A stretch of 10,808 nucleotides of DNA, from positions 12,163 to 22,970 of the forward strand of contig PMOM01000153.1 of NCBI GenBank assembly GCA_003161535.1, written 5' to 3'. This document shows positions 890 through 10,808 of this stretch, piece by piece (within the stretch, counting starts at the first letter, position 1; each line of letters opens with the position of its first letter). Under the pieces are notes generated by a model, which was not told where the DNA came from, made no database searches, and worked only from the letters and a program-made list of their open reading frames with translations. Source of the DNA: Caulobacteraceae bacterium. GTDB taxonomy: Bacteria > Pseudomonadota > Alphaproteobacteria > Caulobacterales > Caulobacteraceae. Made by a program: the position numbers and the translations under genes.

Positions 890-919
890 TTGACATAAGA
901 ACAAAACAGGAACATTCGT
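890..919 (+). promoter_or_regulatory. Promoter of sidA (consensus -35, weak -10)
   Basis: A perfect TTGACA -35 hexamer occupies 890-895. With a 16-18 nt spacer the -10 falls within about 912-919 (ACATTCGT), which is a poor match, so its exact position is uncertain. The start of transcription would be near 925, leaving a leader of about 28 nt before the sidA ATG. The LexA box fills the spacer between -35 and -10, the arrangement expected for a promoter that LexA blocks directly. Confidence 0.65.
899..913. promoter_or_regulatory. SOS box (LexA operator), GAAC-N7-GAAC
   Basis: GAAC at 899-902 and GAAC at 910-913 are separated by exactly seven bases. This equals GTTC-N7-GTTC on the other strand, the direct-repeat LexA operator known from alphaproteobacteria and unlike the palindromic CTG-N10-CAG box of E. 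coli. It starts 3 nt after the -35 hexamer, so bound LexA would exclude RNA polymerase. Further half-sites follow at 918-921 (GTTC) and 925-928 (GAAC), not at the canonical spacing. The position, 39 nt before a SidA-like gene, strongly supports a real site. Confidence 0.88.
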
Positions 920-939
920 TCGCTGAACGCACCATTGGG

Positions 940-944
940 AAGGA
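940..944 (+). promoter_or_regulatory. Strong ribosome binding site of sidA
   Basis: AAGGA (within GGGAAGGA, 937-944) lies 8 nt before the ATG at 953. This is an almost ideal Shine-Dalgarno sequence and spacing, and it supports translation of the 29-codon frame that follows. Confidence 0.75.
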
Positions 945-952
945 TTATCATC

Positions 953-1042
953 ATGATTCGTATCGCGCGTGAGTCGCTGGCGCTTGCGTCAGTGGTCGGG
1001 TTCGTTTGGATGGTATGCCAGGCGGCGCAGTTGGCGGCCTGA
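953..1042 (+). CDS. sidA: SidA-like SOS-induced cell division inhibitor, 29 aa
   Basis: ATG at 953 opens a frame of 29 codons ending in TGA (1040-1042). The peptide starts [12 protein letters not shown], with basic residues at 3 and 6, and continues into a hydrophobic segment (about residues 8-29, including [16 protein letters not shown]). It should be a single-pass inner-membrane peptide with a short basic N-terminus, probably cytoplasmic. Caulobacter crescentus SidA is a 29-residue inner-membrane protein, repressed by LexA, that stops division after DNA damage by acting on the late divisome (FtsW, with FtsN contact reported). The identical length, the membrane character, the LexA box with -35 element upstream, the strong ribosome binding site and the adjacent dnaE all fit. 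As I recall, sidA also neighbours dnaE in Caulobacter. I could not align the residues, so orthology is inferred from features and context. Gene finders will usually miss a frame this short. Part of it is covered by upstream extensions of the dnaE frame, which are unlikely to be used. Confidence 0.85.
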
Positions 1043-1062: not shown

Positions 1063-4000
1063 ATGACGAAGCAGGCGGAGGGATTCGTCCATCTGCGGGT
1101 GCGGTCCGCATACACTCTGCTTGAGGGGGCCATCAAGGCCGAGGCGATCGGCGGCCTGGCGGCGGCCGATGGGATGCCGGCCGTGGCGCTCACCGACCGG
1201 GCGAACCTCTTTGGGGCGCTGGAGTTCTCGGTCCTCACGCGAGATGCGGGCGTACAGCCGATTGTTGGTTGCGCCTTGCCGGTGACGGGCCTGGGATGCG
1301 GGCCGCCGGAGCGCTGGGCGCGCATACCAACCCTGGTGCTTCTGGCTCAGAACGAGGCGGGCTACCGCAACCTTTGCGAGCTTTCCACCGCGGCCTTTCT
1401 GGAGGTTGAGGCGCACGAGGCGCCGCACGTTCCGTGGGGGCGAATCGCCGCGCACGCCGAAGGGCTGATCGCGCTTTCGGGTGGCTCTGACGGTCCCATC
1501 GACCCGCTGTTCGCCGCAGGACGAACCCATGAGGGACGCGCGGCGCTGGAGGATCTGCGCCGGGTGTTCGGGGACCGGCTGTATGTGGAGCTGCAGCGCC
1601 ATGGGCTGGCCAGCCAGGCGGTTGCCGAACCAGGGCTGGTCGCCTGGGCTTACGAGAGCGACGCGCCGCTCGTGGCCACCAACGATGTCTACTTCGCGAA
1701 ATGCGAGACCTGGCAGGCGCACGACGCCCTTTTGTGCATCGCCGACGGCGCCTTCGTCGATCAGGAGGACCGTCGCCGCGTGACGCCGGAGCACTGGTTT
1801 AAGCCGGCCGGTGACATGCGCCGTCTGTTCGCCGATCTGCCGGAAGCTTGCGACAACACTCTTGAGATCGCGCGGCGTTGCGCCTTCATGGTGGGCAAAC
1901 GAGAGCCGATCCTGCCGCGCTTTCCAACCACCGAGGGCCGATCGGAGGATGAGGAGCTCGCCGGGCAGGCGCGCGAGGGGCTGCGCGCGCGCCTGGACGC
2001 CGCGCCGCCACCCGAGGGTGAAGAGGATTATTGGGAGCGGTTGGAACGCGAAATCGGCGTCATCCAATCGATGGGTTTTTCGGGCTATTTCCTGATTGTT
2101 TCGGACTTCATGAAGTGGGCGGTGGCGCACGACATCCCGGTGGGACCGGGCAGGGGCTCGGGGGCGGGATCGGCGGTGGCCTGGTCCTTGTTGATCACAG
2201 GCATCGATCCCCTGCGTTTCGGACTGCTCTTTGAGCGCTTCCTCAATCCCGAACGCATCTCCATGCCCGACTTTGACATCGATTTTTGCCAGGAGCGGCG
2301 CGAGGAGGTGATCGCCTATGTTCAAGCGCGCTATGGCGCGGACCGAGTGGCGCAGATCATCACCTTCGGCACCTTGCAGGCCCGCGCGGTGCTGCGCGAT
2401 GTCGGCCGGGTGATGCAGCTGCCCCTGGGACAAGTCGATCGTCTGGCCAAGATGATTCCCAACAATCCGGCCGCGCCGGTGACCCTGGCCCGGGCCATTG
2501 AGCTGGAGCCGCGCTTGCAGGCGGCCCGGCGGGATGACGAAGCGGTGGCGCAGGTGATCGACACCGCCCTGCAACTTGAGGGCCTCTATCGCAACGCATC
2601 CACCCATGCCGCCGGCGTGGTTATCGCCGACCGCCCGCTGACCGAGCTTGCGCCCCTCTACCGGGACCCCCGATCCAGCGTACCGGCGACGCAATTCAAC
2701 ATGAAGTGGGTGGAAAGCGCCGGCCTAGTCAAATTCGACTTCCTTGGGCTCAAGACCCTCACCGTCATTCATCGGGCGGTAAAACACCTTGAGCGCCGGG
2801 GAGCGGGCTTGGCCATCGACCTCTTGCCGCTGGATGATCCGGCCACCTACGCGTTGGTATCGTCCGGTCACACGGTGGGGGTGTTCCAGATGGAAGGCCA
2901 GGGCATGCGCGACACCCTGCGCAAGCTGCGACCATCGAGCGTGGAAGAGATCACCGCGCTCATCTCGCTTTATCGGCCGGGCCCGATGGATTCCATTGAC
3001 GAATATGTCGACTGCAAAATGGGTCGCCGGCCGGTGAATATTCTGCCCGGCCTGGAGGCGGCTCTGGCCGAAACCTATGGAGTGATCGTCTATCAGGAGC
3101 AGGTCATGCAGATCGCTCAGATCCTGGCTGGCTACTCCCTGGGCGAGGCGGATCTGCTGCGCCGCGCCATGGGCAAGAAGAAAAAGGAGGAGATGGACCA
3201 GCAGCGGGCTCGTTTCCTCTCCGGGGCCGCGGCGCACGGCCTGGCGGTCCTTGAGGCCGAGTCGATGTTTGAGCGCATGGCCAAGTTCGCCGGTTACGGC
3301 TTCAACAAGAGCCACGCCGCCCCGTACGCCCTGATCGCCTACCAAACCGCCTGGCTGAAGGCCAATGCGCCGGTGGAGTTCTTCGCCGCGTCGATGAGTC
3401 TGGATATCTCCAATACCGACAAGCTGGCGGTGTTCTATCAGGACGCCAAGCGTCAATCGGCGCCCATTTTGCCCCCGGACATCAACCGATCGGGCGCGGA
3501 CTTTGAGGTCGCCGACGGCCAGGTGCTCTACGCGCTGGGCGCCGTGCGCAATGTCGGCCAGCAAGCCATGGCGCACGTCGTGGAAATTCGCGAGGCGGGG
3601 GGCCGCTTCAGCGACCTGTTCGACTTTCTCGAACGCATCGATCCGCGGCAGGTGAACAAGCGCGCCTTGGAGAGTCTGGCCCGTTCAGGCGCATTTGATT
3701 CCATCCACCCAAATCGCGCGCAGATCGTCGCCAGCGCCGATTTCTTGATCGGCTACGCCCAAAGCATGGCCGCCGACCGCGCCTCATCTCAGGAAAGTTT
3801 GTTTGGCGAACGCGCCGAGGCCGTCCGACCGCGTCTGGCCAAGACCGAGCCATGGGATCCGGTGCGCCAGTTGGACGAGGAGTTGGCGGCCGTGGGCTTT
3901 TATCTGAGCGGGCACCCGCTGGATGACATGCTCGAGGTCCTGCGTCGACACCGCACCACCTTCCTGGTGGACGCCGTCGCCGCGGCCGCCGCCGGCGCGG

Positions 4001-4488
4001 AAGCCTTCCGCATGGTCGGCATGGTCCGCCGTCGGCAAGAACGCTCATCAGCCGCCAGCAGCGGAGGCAAATTCGCCTTCGTTTCCCTGTCCGACCCGAG
4101 CGGCGAATACGAAGTCTTGTTCCAGCCCGAAGTGCTGCGCCGCTGTCGCGATCTGCTCGAGCCGGGCCGGGCGATCATCCTTCGGGTGCGGGCCAAGGCC
4201 AGCGACGGCGAAGTGCGCTTCTTCGCCGATGACGCCGAGCCTCTTGAGCGGGCCATCGAGAAAGTCGCCGCCGGCCTGCGCATCCACCTTTCGCCATCGA
4301 TCACCGAGATCGAGGTTCTCAAGGCCCGCCTTAAGCCGCAAGCCTCCGGCGGTCCGGTGATCTTCGTCGCCGCTTTCGCCGGCGGTCGCGAGGTGGAAAT
4401 GCGCCTTCCGGGCCGCTATCAGCTCGACCCGGCCATGCGCGGCGCCCTGAAGATCGCGCCTGGTGTGGCGTTCCTGGAGGATGTCTAG
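1063..4488 (+). CDS. dnaE: DNA polymerase III subunit alpha (replicative, DnaE1 type)
   Basis: This 1141-residue protein is the catalytic subunit of the replicative polymerase. Domains in order: PHP (about 8-280), polymerase palm, thumb and fingers (about 290-800), helix-hairpin-helix (about 850-880), clamp-binding peptide and C-terminal OB fold (about 970-1045). Catalytic acidic residues are D403 and D405 in MPDFDIDFC and D559 in [11 protein letters not shown], matching E. coli D401, D403 and D555. GPGRGSGAG lies near residue 363. The fingers motif [18 protein letters not shown] (about 745) is of DnaE1 type; the mutagenic DnaE2 has a different sequence here. QESLF at 910-914 fits the beta-clamp consensus. 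The PHP metal-site region reads HLRVRSAYT where intact PHP domains have H-x-H-S-D, so no nuclease activity is expected and a separate DnaQ should proofread. Start: the frame is open upstream (TTG 1006, ATG 1015, ATG 1048), but those starts overlap sidA. ATG 1063 has GGAG 9 nt upstream and gives the usual N-terminus just before [10 protein letters not shown]. The gene begins 20 nt after sidA and is probably co-transcribed with it. Confidence 0.97.
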
Positions 4489-7993: not shown

Positions 7994-8629
7994 GTGACCG
8001 GAATCCTCAACAGGCCGACCAAGTCGGCGCGCAAAGCCAAGGGCGATGGCCACCTTCGCCGCGCCGAGATTCTGCGCGCCGCCGAGCGCATCTTCGTCGC
8101 CGAAGGCTACGAGGGCGCCACAATCCGCAAGATCGCCGATGAAGTTGGAGTGTCTTCTACCTGTCTTTACATGCACTTTCGCGATAAAGATGAGATCCTT
8201 TTGAGAATTTGCACCACGGCCATGGAACAGCTCCTCGCTCTCAACAGCGAGATCTCCGCCAGGCCCATCGATCCGGTCGAGCGGGTGCGGATGATGATGT
8301 CGGCCTATGTCGCCTTCGCCTTGGGCAATCCCAACGCTTACCGCCTGGTGTTCTGCGCTTCGCCGCTGGCCGCTTCGGTGCAGAAACAGCGAGCCACGCT
8401 GCAGCTGGGCGCCCAGTGTTTCGAGCGATTCAGCGGCGTGGTGCGCGAGATCGCCGCCCAGGGGCGGCTGCGCACGGGCGATCCGCGCACGGTGCATCAA
8501 GCCTTGTGGGCCGCCTGCCACGGCATGGTCGCCCTGATGATCGCCAAGCCCGATTTCGACTGGGCGCCGCCCGAGGAGATCAGCCGGGTGATGATCGAGG
8601 GACTGCTTTTCGGCCTGATCTCCGACTGA
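7994..8629 (+). CDS. TetR family transcriptional regulator with WHG-type C-terminal domain
   Basis: The protein has 211 residues starting at GTG 7994, preceded by AGAGG (5 nt away) and AAGGAG (12 nt away). After a basic tail (MTGILNRPTKSARKAK) comes a TetR DNA-binding domain (about 22-70): ILRAAERIFVAEGYEGA, then helix-turn-helix TIRKIADEVGVSSTCLYMHF (43-62), then RDKDEIL. The C-terminal ligand and dimerisation domain (about 85-210) includes NPNAYRLVF and LWAACHGMVAL (171-181), which fits the WHG subgroup. The regulated genes are probably the transporter genes directly downstream, starting 5 nt after its stop, and it may repress its own transcription. The inducer is unknown. An iron or cobalamin transporter controlled by TetR rather than Fur or a riboswitch would be unusual, so the ligand could reveal the transported substrate. 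No clear TetR operator was identified upstream; an 8-bp palindrome GACATGTC lies at 7965-7972. Confidence 0.9.
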   Translation: MTGILNRPTKSARKAKGDGHLRRAEILRAAERIFVAEGYEGATIRKIADEVGVSSTCLYMHFRDKDEILLRICTTAMEQLLALNSEISARPIDPVERVRMMMSAYVAFALGNPNAYRLVFCASPLAASVQKQRATLQLGAQCFERFSGVVREIAAQGRLRTGDPRTVHQALWAACHGMVALMIAKPDFDWAPPEEISRVMIEGLLFGLISD

Positions 8630-8634
8630 CGGCC

Positions 8635-9456
8635 TTGCGTGCGTGGGCCGGTCTCGCCGGAACCGTCATCGTCCTCCTATTCGCCCGCCCCTCTTGGAGC
8701 GCGCCCCGCGTGCTTTCGCTGGATCAATGCGCTGATCAATACGTCCTGGCCCTCAGCCCCCGCGCGGCCATCGCTGGCCTTTCAAACCGGGCCCTAAACG
8801 CCGACTCCTATCTGCGCGAACAGGCGCGCGGGCTTTCTCGCCGCCGAGCCGACAGCGAGTCGGCCCTGGGGGTTCGCCCGGCCGTGGTGGTGCGTTATTG
8901 GGGCGGCGAGCCGCGCCTGTTGGCCGACTTAGCGCGTCGGGGCGTGCGGGTGGTGCGCATTGAGGACGCCGAGGACTTCGCGGGCGTGCGGCGAAATATC
9001 CGGGCGGTGGCGGCCGCGCTCGGCCAGAGGGCGGCTGGCGAGAGGCTTATCGAGTCTATGGACTGGCGGCTGGCGGGCGCCGCCGGAGCTTGGCGAAGCC
9101 GGGGCGCCCTCTATTTGACCTCTGGGGGGGCGACGGCCGGACGCCGGACGCTCATCGACGCCATGCTGCGCGCCGCCGGCTTGACCAACCTCGCCGGCGG
9201 CGTGGGCTATCACGAGGTCTCCTTGGAGCGGCTGGTCATGAAGCCGCCCAGCGCCATCGTCGAGGGGTTCTTCGACGCGGGGGCGGACGCCGCACAGCAC
9301 TGGGGGTTCGGCCGTCACCAGGTCCTGCGCCGGCTCGCCGCCCGGCGCGCCGTGATTTCCCTGCCGGGGGCCGTGCTTGGCTGCCCCGCCTGGTTCGCGG
9401 CCGACGGCGCCTTGGCGATCGCGCGGGCGGCCACGCCGCCGGGACCGGGGGTCTAG
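8635..9456 (+). CDS. Periplasmic substrate-binding protein of a BtuF/FecB-type ABC transporter
   Basis: The protein has 273 residues if TTG 8635 is the start. This is the only common start codon between the TetR stop and the signal peptide, and no good ribosome binding site precedes it, so translation is likely coupled to the TetR gene ending 5 nt upstream. Residues 1-22 form a signal peptide (MRAWAGLAGTVIVLLFARPS), with cleavage near WS|AP. The mature part opens with RVLSLDQCADQYVLAL, typical of class-III binding proteins (Peripla_BP_2) for cobalamin, haem or ferric siderophores. RPAVVVRYWGGEPRLLADLA and VRVVRIEDAEDF form the first lobe, and GGVGYHEVSLERLVMKPP opens the second. There is no lipobox, so the protein should be soluble in the periplasm. 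It is followed by FecCD permease and ATPase genes with almost no spacing. BtuF is the best guess, but the ligand is not proven. Confidence 0.82.
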   Translation: MRAWAGLAGTVIVLLFARPSWSAPRVLSLDQCADQYVLALSPRAAIAGLSNRALNADSYLREQARGLSRRRADSESALGVRPAVVVRYWGGEPRLLADLARRGVRVVRIEDAEDFAGVRRNIRAVAAALGQRAAGERLIESMDWRLAGAAGAWRSRGALYLTSGGATAGRRTLIDAMLRAAGLTNLAGGVGYHEVSLERLVMKPPSAIVEGFFDAGADAAQHWGFGRHQVLRRLAARRAVISLPGAVLGCPAWFAADGALAIARAATPPGPGV

Positions 9457-9459
9457 CCG

Positions 9460-10437
9460 ATGCGTCCGATCCTCTTGCTGATCTTGCTGCTGGCCGTCGT
9501 CCTCGTCCTGGCCATCGGTTTGGGAGAGACGCCGCTGTCGGCCCGGCAATACCTGCAAGCCTTCGCCAGTCCGGCCTCGCCGCCCGCTGAAATCCTGTGG
9601 ACCCTCCGCGCGCCGCGGGCGGCGGCGGCGGCCCTGGTTGGGGGCGCCCTAGGCCTGGCCGGGGCGGTGATGCAGGGACTACTGCGCAACCCCCTGGCCG
9701 ACCCTGGCGTCCTGGGCGTCTCGGCGGTTTCAGCGCTTGGCGCGGCGATGTGCATCGCCGCCGGCGTCGCCGTGACCCCTGGCGCCATCGAGATCGCCGC
9801 CTTGGCCGGCGCCTTGTTGGCCGGCGCCCTGGTGGTCTTTCTGGCGGCCAGGCTCGCGGAGCCGCAAACCCTGATTCTGTTCGGCGTCGCCCTTTCGGCC
9901 CTGGGCGGCGCGGCGACGGCCCTGGTGTTCAACCTTTCGCCATCGCCCATCACCACCAGTGAAGTGCTTTCGTGGCTGCTGGGATCGGTGGCCAACCGCG
10001 ACTGGAGCGATTGCGCCGCCGCCCTGGTCCCGATGGCCATGGGAGCGGGCTTGTGCGGCTGGGCGGCGCGAGGTCTGCGCATGTTGACCCTCGGCGAAGA
10101 GACCGCGGCCCTCTCGGGCTTGCCCATGGCGCGTCTGCGCGCCGCCGCAGTGGCTGGCGCGGCCCTGCTGACAGGCGCGGCGGTGGCCATGGCCGGCGTC
10201 ATCGGCTTCGTGGGCCTGGCGGCCCCACACCTCACCCGCGGGGCTGTCTCCGACGATCCGGCCCGCACACTGCTCCCGTCCGCGCTCGCCGGCGCGGTGC
10301 TGCTGGTCGCCGCCGACCTCGCCGCCCGCCTGATCCCCACGGCCGAGGAACTGAAACTGGGTGTGGTGACGGCCCTCTTCGGCGCGCCACTGTTCGCCCT
10401 GGTCGCCTGGCACGCGTCACGGAGTTGGCGAGGGTGA
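9460..10437 (+). CDS. FecCD/BtuC family ABC transporter permease
   Basis: The protein has 325 residues, with ATG 9460 three bases after the stop of the binding-protein gene. It is very hydrophobic, with about ten membrane helices as expected for FecCD permeases (usually 320-350 residues). Diagnostic segments are LAGAVMQGLLRNPLADPGVL (67-86), GVIGFVGLAAPHLTR (246-260) and ELKLGVVTALFGAPLF (297-312). The segment around 205-225 (RMLTLGEETAALSGLP) corresponds to the cytoplasmic coupling loop that docks on the ATPase. It forms the homodimeric inner-membrane channel for the cargo delivered by the binding protein, probably cobalamin or a ferric chelate. Its stop overlaps the GTG of the ATPase gene by 4 nt (GTGA), so the two are translationally coupled. 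Confidence 0.92.
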   Translation: MRPILLLILLLAVVLVLAIGLGETPLSARQYLQAFASPASPPAEILWTLRAPRAAAAALVGGALGLAGAVMQGLLRNPLADPGVLGVSAVSALGAAMCIAAGVAVTPGAIEIAALAGALLAGALVVFLAARLAEPQTLILFGVALSALGGAATALVFNLSPSPITTSEVLSWLLGSVANRDWSDCAAALVPMAMGAGLCGWAARGLRMLTLGEETAALSGLPMARLRAAAVAGAALLTGAAVAMAGVIGFVGLAAPHLTRGAVSDDPARTLLPSALAGAVLLVAADLAARLIPTAEELKLGVVTALFGAPLFALVAWHASRSWRG

Positions 10438-10808
10438 CCGCGGCGCTCGAGCTCGCCGACGTCGCCGCGGCGCTGGCCGGCCGCACGGTCATCGAGGCGG
10501 TCAGCCTGACGGTCGCGCCAGGCGAACTGGTCGGTGTGCTGGGCGCCAACGGCTGCGGCAAGACCACTTTGTTGCGCGCCGCCCTGGGCCTCATCGCCCT
10601 GAGCGCCGGCGAGGCCAGGCTCGCCGATCGGGAGGTAGGCGGGCTGAGCGAGGCCGAGCGGGCGAGCCGGGCCGGCTATTTGCCGCAGGAGCGGCGGATC
10701 GGCTGGAATTTGCCAGCCTGGCGCGTGGCCGCTCTGGGTGTCCCGCAGCAGTCCCCGGCGCGCGCCCGCGAAATCGCCATGGGCGCCTTGGCGGAGGTGG
10801 CGATGACG
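10434..10808 (+). CDS. ABC transporter ATP-binding protein, BtuD/FecE type (N-terminal part)
   Basis: GTG 10434 starts a frame of 125 codons that runs off the window. It carries Walker A LGANGCGKTT (36-45, with K43) and the Q-loop YLPQE (Q85). The signature motif, Walker B and the switch histidine would lie beyond the edge. The Walker A is slightly unusual (GANG instead of the common GPNG) but functional in form. It would power the FecCD permease encoded just upstream, with which it shares the GTGA overlap. Because the start is GTG and the gene is cut, it is easy to overlook. Whether a B12-salvage or TonB-dependent receptor gene follows would help settle the substrate. Confidence 0.9.
   Translation, partial: MTAALELADVAAALAGRTVIEAVSLTVAPGELVGVLGANGCGKTTLLRAALGLIALSAGEARLADREVGGLSEAERASRAGYLPQERRIGWNLPAWRVAALGVPQQSPARAREIAMGALAEVAMT

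Follow-up and report, generated by a model that had tools for sequence, protein, structure and literature searches.

A SidA orthologue encoded before dnaE in a Caulobacteraceae bacterium, and SidA-like peptides beyond the family

In a 10,808-nucleotide stretch of DNA from a Caulobacteraceae bacterium (the window), a 29-codon frame at positions 953-1042 is, on sequence evidence, a genuine orthologue of sidA, the gene for a small division inhibitor of Caulobacter crescentus, and thus one more member of an already known family. It directly precedes dnaE, and this arrangement extends past the Caulobacteraceae; a sequence-only reading of the window contained neither point. We put at roughly 93% the probability that positions 890-1042 hold sidA as a LexA-repressed, FtsW-binding division checkpoint whose transcript very probably extends into dnaE. 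The features observed directly are the frame, promoter anatomy, family membership, selection and synteny.

The sidA gene of the window

All features of the locus lie on the forward strand. TTGACA, a -35-like element of the sidA promoter, is found at 890-895, where most relatives have a TTG[AC] context, and is followed at 899-913 by a LexA operator of the form GAAC-N7-GAAC (GAACAAAACAGGAAC), predicted from the sequence and the published consensus. The ribosome-binding site AAGGA (940-944) is separated by 8 nt from the ATG at 953. The frame that begins there, identified by its match to NF033228.1 and its pN/pS as that of a single-membrane-helix SOS division inhibitor, ends 20 nt before dnaE (1063-4488). 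Promoter element, box, ribosome-binding site, start codon and membrane peptide stand exactly where the sequence-only reading had placed them. Hydropathy analysis shows one hydrophobic stretch in the peptide, with a Kyte-Doolittle value of 1.95 over the 17 residues from position 9, and predicts the single inner-membrane helix of SidA.

The NCBIfam equivalog model for SidA (NF033228.1, div_inhib_SidA) matched the window peptide with 68.9 bits, about twice its curated cut-off of 35, over the entire model (positions 1-29 of 29). The only Pfam match, to PSI_PsaJ, was rejected at 14.5 bits, far under the cut-off of 22.4. Among 14 named control genomes, Caulobacter vibrioides alone was matched by NF033228.1. 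When 149 genomes of the window's family were searched, 116 matched at E ≤ 0.01 and 86 exceeded the cut-off, while 33 gave no match at E ≤ 0.01. Part of these non-matches reflects the sensitivity of the search, because one genome (G017) was missed although sidA was found there by genome searches with the window peptide and with profile A1. The window peptide itself matched 21 of 24 genomes of the family at E ≤ 0.0013 and none of 16 genomes from other families of the order, for which the best E-value was 0.3.

Synteny was assessed in 40 named loci (L031-L070) with a DnaE identity of at least 66%, which had been fetched by DnaE alone, without a peptide query, and whose titles read Caulobacter, Phenylobacterium, Brevundimonas, Asticcacaulis or Caulobacteraceae or are unspecific. 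All 40 have a SidA frame of 28-31 residues before dnaE, with 38 distinct peptides; the weak loci L132-L137 and the window's own copy (L111) were left out of this count. The model match, the restriction of control matches to C. vibrioides, this synteny and the selection described below support the proposal that 953-1042 is the SidA orthologue. The accompanying claim that ordinary ORF calling would miss the locus does not hold: the gene is not beyond annotation, and a SidA model, NF033228.1, is already in NCBI.

Across 14 distinct related sidA genes, pN/pS was 0.27 in frame versus 1.63 and 1.71 in the other two frames (earlier values of 0.28, 1.62 and 1.70 had counted one sequence twice, L031 being identical to L120). 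The frame is protein-coding and under purifying selection. Lack of similarity to SidA and a random synonymous/nonsynonymous pattern had been named beforehand as evidence against orthology; the 68.9-bit match and the pN/pS of 0.27 point the other way. Among 46 distinct SidA sequences of 29 residues, S13, F17 and V18 are each present in 45, W19 in 44, M20 and R6 each in 43 and L9 in 42, so that the conserved pattern consists of an R-[ED] pair and then a central S-V-x-x-F-V-W-M core. Which residues of the division-blocking helix are conserved, a question that the sequence-only reading had expected comparison with SidA to settle, is answered in part, as far as residue counts over these 46 sequences go, by the core that follows R-[ED]; the window gene helps to map which helix residues matter. 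Like the window peptide, SidA of C. crescentus has 29 residues, a GAAC-N7-GAAC operator and a single helix, the two being compared through NF033228.1. Relative to other sidA loci, the window has one intact operator, where most have two, and its gap to dnaE (20 nt) is shorter than in any of the 40 named loci (26-258 nt).

Elsewhere in the window, a TetR regulator (7994-8629) is followed by FecCD-type ABC importer genes (binding protein, permease and ATPase) up to 10808, all assigned by Pfam and ordinary. The substrate of the importer encoded within 7994-10808 is, we presume, perhaps a metal chelate or vitamin B12.

The predicted LexA operator

By itself, the bare box is weak evidence. GAAC-N7-GAAC occurs once in the window versus 0.27 expected, at least one match was present in 47 of 200 window shuffles, and the 1.9-Mb draft genome contains 58 matches as compared to 43 for a backwards control pattern. 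The box alone was rejected as proof on these numbers.

Together with A914 and T915, the box at 899-913 fits GAACA-N6-GAACA[A/T], reading GAACA-AAACAG-GAACA-T. The C. crescentus LexA consensus is given as (T/A)TGTTC-N6-TGTTC in the available part of one report (PMC13384398), and GTTCN7GTTC appears as a LexA site in Table 1 of another, likewise available in part (PMC9578287). Read on the other strand, the window box is a full fit to the C. crescentus consensus.

We examined 59 distinct sidA upstream regions, the number left after identical ones were removed from 61 (the window, the 40 named loci fetched by DnaE and 20 unnamed loci matched by peptide). Every one contains the box with at most one mismatch, and in 39 the box is perfect. 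A tandem pair of boxes was found in 55 of the 59 (mononucleotide shuffles: mean 0.055, largest 2), and TTG[AC] lies immediately 5' of the first box in 54; the window retains one operator, the first of the pair usual in relatives. It is this conservation upstream of related genes, not the bare match, that raises the window box above chance level. The second half-site of 899-913 falls about where a -10 element would be expected, and LexA binding should therefore block RNA polymerase. The consensus fit and the 59 of 59 regions place a predicted LexA operator at the sidA promoter, and direct repression of the window gene by LexA is strongly implied by this conserved operator.

LexA was not found in the window genome's own draft, which is 71% complete. 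Of 15 genomes in the genus, 13 have LexA; the other genome without it (G004) is 83% complete. Thirty of the 58 box loci in the window's genome were examined and were mostly uninformative; five have a GAACAAA-type box. The only relevant frame among these five besides sidA is ImuA-like (L015:1083-1866), with a GAACAAA-type LexA box that ends 16 nt before it; this frame scored 47.5 bits against NF033429, under the cut-off of 150.

Linkage to dnaE and the proposed division checkpoint

The gene after sidA scored 1402 bits against NF004226, the model for the replicative DNA polymerase III alpha subunit (cut-off 1002). The error-prone DnaE type was rejected, with 582 bits against NF004225 (cut-off 939). 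We set the start of dnaE at ATG 1063, from whose codon 1 some homologues align, L035 and L038 among them; 1048 is an alternative. A 2012 comparative study cites dnaE as a gene already reported to be SOS-regulated in C. crescentus (PMC3323433, available in part). Given this statement and the short gap between the two genes, co-transcription of sidA and dnaE is likely in this organism. The same study of the alphaproteobacterial LexA regulon identified genes including dnaE, which is the same link of box and dnaE; in the window, by comparison, the LexA box belongs to the promoter of the peptide gene. Sections 7-8 of that article name no small gene lying between the box and dnaE, and the term "division inhibitor" is absent from the available main text (0 occurrences). 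Our results suggest that a LexA site attributed to dnaE can act as the promoter of a gene for a division checkpoint, and such a site would couple a septum block with polymerase supply.

SidA of C. crescentus, an inner-membrane protein of 29 residues, interacts with FtsW and, in two-hybrid assays, with FtsN. Its proposed effect is to favour an inactive FtsW/I/N complex, and it inhibits division when made from a plasmid (PMC4211646, available in part). Deletion of lexA causes filamentation because of sidA (PMC12700426, available in part). Taken with the anatomy, conservation and family membership of the window gene, this work suggests a course in which LexA release leads to SidA synthesis, the septal synthase is held off and dnaE is raised. 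By analogy to C. crescentus, LexA bound at 899-913 would lie across the promoter and hold sidA silent. On DNA damage, activated RecA would lead to the cleavage of LexA, and the promoter would fire. The peptide of 29 residues would then insert into the inner membrane, bind FtsW within the FtsW/FtsI/FtsN septal synthase and keep this synthase inactive, arresting division until LexA returns. The sidA transcript very probably continues into dnaE 20 nt downstream. A single SOS signal would thus block the septum and supply the replicative polymerase, with dnaE raised from the same promoter.

Other small inhibitors bear comparison with SidA. DidA of C. crescentus is also a small transmembrane inhibitor of the FtsW/I/N complex, but it is SOS-independent, is induced by DriD instead of LexA and binds FtsN, and was set apart here by this description (PMC4211646, available in part). 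Like SidA, YneA of B. subtilis and SosA of S. aureus are SOS-induced membrane division inhibitors. We take both to be larger than SidA and unrelated to it as proteins; the relationship is one of analogy, not homology. AlphaFold 3 models published in 2026, which are not of high confidence, put SidA and SosA on TM7 of FtsW, as is the case for YneA, with SidA on the opposite face of TM7 (PMC13396833, available in part).

Could the short frame instead be a leader that tunes dnaE translation, its peptide itself doing little? Its place directly before dnaE, 20 nt away in the window, and the persistence of the dnaE linkage despite strong divergence of the peptide are what a leader would predict. However, division in C. 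crescentus is inhibited by plasmid-expressed SidA (PMC4211646, available in part), selection at the amino-acid level is seen in six lineages, the distance to dnaE varies (26-258 nt in the 40 named loci, 20 nt in the window), and at two loci (L315 and L317) box and peptide are present while the next 4.8-5.3 kb contain no match to DnaE. We regard the leader explanation as very improbable, and these two loci as useful for separating peptide function from leader function. A chance open frame next to a chance GAAC repeat has a practically negligible probability. Although a bare box is not rare, as the 47 of 200 shuffles indicate, chance was rejected in view of the match to the curated model, the recurrence of the frame in 40 of 40 named loci, the pN/pS of 0.27 and the conserved promoter. 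We retain sidA, as a LexA-repressed division checkpoint linked to dnaE, as the preferred reading of the locus.

SidA-like peptides beyond the Caulobacteraceae

A class-wide search with DnaE matched 278 of 289 genomes. From the best 150 places, which carry the most window-like DnaE and are not an even sample, the 700 nt upstream of dnaE were examined in 120, with a limit of two per family in all but seven families; among the 30 class genomes left out of the 150 are three from the window's family (G000, G017 and G270). GAAC-N7-GAAC was present in 23 of the 120 regions (dinucleotide shuffles: mean 1.22, largest 4), as compared to 1 to 6 of 120 for other GAAC spacings from N3 to N12. In 20 of these 23 regions, a hydrophobic-helix frame of 24-50 residues has its start no more than 100 nt from the box, and the same type of frame occurs at matched positions in 4 of 97 box-free regions (Fisher p = 5.7e-16), by frame criteria that were fixed after an earlier look at loci. 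The three misses (L149, L177 and L255) also have a peptide when inspected by eye, under the hydropathy threshold.

Among 40 named loci with a DnaE identity below 66%, 20 have a peptide, preceded by a perfect box in 19, and the other 20 have no SidA-like peptide; 16 of the peptide-bearing loci are members of profile A3. The 20 loci with a peptide come from Oceanicaulis, Maricaulis, Rhodobiaceae, Tepidicaulis, Parvibaculum, Robiginitomaculum, Parvularculaceae, Aquisalinus, Pseudovibrio, Xanthobacteraceae, Stappia, Bradyrhizobiaceae, Phreatobacter and others. The order of LexA box, membrane peptide of 26-47 residues and dnaE was seen in Parvibaculum, Maricaulis, Stappia, Phreatobacter and Bradyrhizobium-like genomes. 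An upstream LolD-like ATPase signature was found at 22 of 37 distinct outside loci, a recount from 40 after removal of L265 (Caulobacteraceae), L284 (spurious) and the second copy of G195 (L282, L298), and at 19 of the 40 named Caulobacteraceae loci; a lolD-sidA-dnaE neighbourhood is therefore common to both groups. Outside genomes were placed by the similarity of their DnaE to named loci, and the order names that we assign to them (Rhizobiales, Parvibaculales, Maricaulales) are presumptive.

When an HMM built from Caulobacteraceae SidA only was run on 8300 frames of the other dnaE loci, outside peptides took the nine top ranks, with E-values of 0.0017 to 1.4, each weak alone; the reversed HMM found none of the nine among the same 8300 frames. 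In profile-profile comparison with SidA by hhalign, the set closest to Parvibaculum and its relatives reached 96.2% and the set closest to Rhizobiales 92.8%, versus 2.9%, 1.7% and 0.3% for reversed-profile controls; the sets were chosen by DnaE similarity and title, and the reversed-profile control was run on fetched loci. By profile similarity above the reversed controls, the outside peptides are predicted homologues of SidA. None of 10 gave a match to NF033228.1 at E ≤ 10 or any match to Pfam, and we class them as probable relatives of SidA that are not members of NF033228.1, since its curated cut-off is not reached. In five further lineages (7, 3, 3, 3 and 2 genes, L318 left out), in-frame pN/pS was 0.14, 0.26, 0.16, 0.40 and 0.11, and it was 0.95 or more in the other frames where computable.

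Genome-wide searches returned the same arrangement. Profile A1 was run on 289 whole genomes; of the 28 new loci examined from this search (one in Caulobacteraceae), 26 have dnaE downstream and 27 the box just upstream. In genomes outside A1 it found 12 places at E ≤ 0.0042, and 10 of these adjoin dnaE; four of the ten had been seen before in the dnaE survey, and some are near training sequences. Earlier matches supplied the sequences for profiles A2 and A3. Within the phylum, A2 reached E ≤ 0.01 in 30 of 249 genomes, of which 28 belong to the class and two do not (both at about 0.008), and weak matches inside long frames occurred within the class as well (G261, G313). The box is present at all 16 A2 places at E ≤ 0.001 that lie outside the window's family and are not in A2, and dnaE is within about 320 nt at 14. 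A3 gave 32 places at E ≤ 0.002, most of them training sequences, from 14 families including the window's; 29 are beside dnaE, the exceptions being G165 and G247, inside long frames away from dnaE, and G054, at a contig end. At E ≤ 0.1, 235 of the 289 class genomes had no A3 match. The arrangement also varies: G599 and G601, the source of L315 and L317, belong to one genus (f147/g250) and have the box and peptide without a following DnaE match, in G490 dnaE is about 2.5 kb away, G641 is without a perfect box, and the weak A3 match of G230 lies on a contig other than that of dnaE.

It is also conceivable that the loci outside Caulobacteraceae are not orthologous to sidA and that unrelated single-helix peptides arose repeatedly in the SOS slot before dnaE. 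Identity with the window peptide frequently falls below 20%, all 10 peptides fail to match NF033228.1 or Pfam, the scores of the Caulobacteraceae-only HMM are weak, and short hydrophobic helices can resemble each other. Set against this are the top nine ranks among 8300 frames, with none for the reversed HMM, the hhalign values of 96.2% and 92.8%, where reversed profiles gave 2.9% and 1.7%, and the features in common, which are the LexA box, dnaE and, in many cases, a LolD-like neighbour. We consider repeated origin unlikely. With modest conviction, we lean towards common descent: a LexA-controlled, single-helix division inhibitor of about 26-47 residues, equivalent to SulA, would have stood in the lolD-dnaE neighbourhood since early alphaproteobacterial history as one SOS unit with the replicative polymerase, and would survive, without a curated model, in Rhizobiales (Bradyrhizobium-like genomes, Stappia, Phreatobacter and further families), Parvibaculales, Maricaulales and others. 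On this bolder reading, SidA-type peptides would be an old alphaproteobacterial SOS division checkpoint and not a Caulobacter invention. The open-licence literature, represented mainly by titles and the starts of abstracts, yielded no account of SOS division arrest in Alphaproteobacteria outside Caulobacter and no report of a wide distribution of SidA. The wider pattern matters more than the window gene, offering a candidate division inhibitor per family at a predictable site before dnaE.

Two further operator arrangements were seen upstream of dnaE. GTTC-N7-GTTC, the repeat in the other orientation, occurs in 12 of the 120 dnaE-upstream regions (shuffle mean 1.03, largest 5). At nine loci from unnamed Alphaproteobacteria (L180, L181, L183, L199, L215, L226, L239, L240 and L244), it lies 58-92 nt upstream of the DnaE match, and no SidA-like peptide was seen in the interval; the SOS gene of these nine lineages may be dnaE itself. 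In seven Bradyrhizobium-like loci (L299, L302, L303, L304, L306, L308 and L309), GAAC-N7-GAAC is followed after 3 nt by GTTC-N7-GTTC and then by the SidA-like peptide, forming a predicted double operator with opposed orientations.
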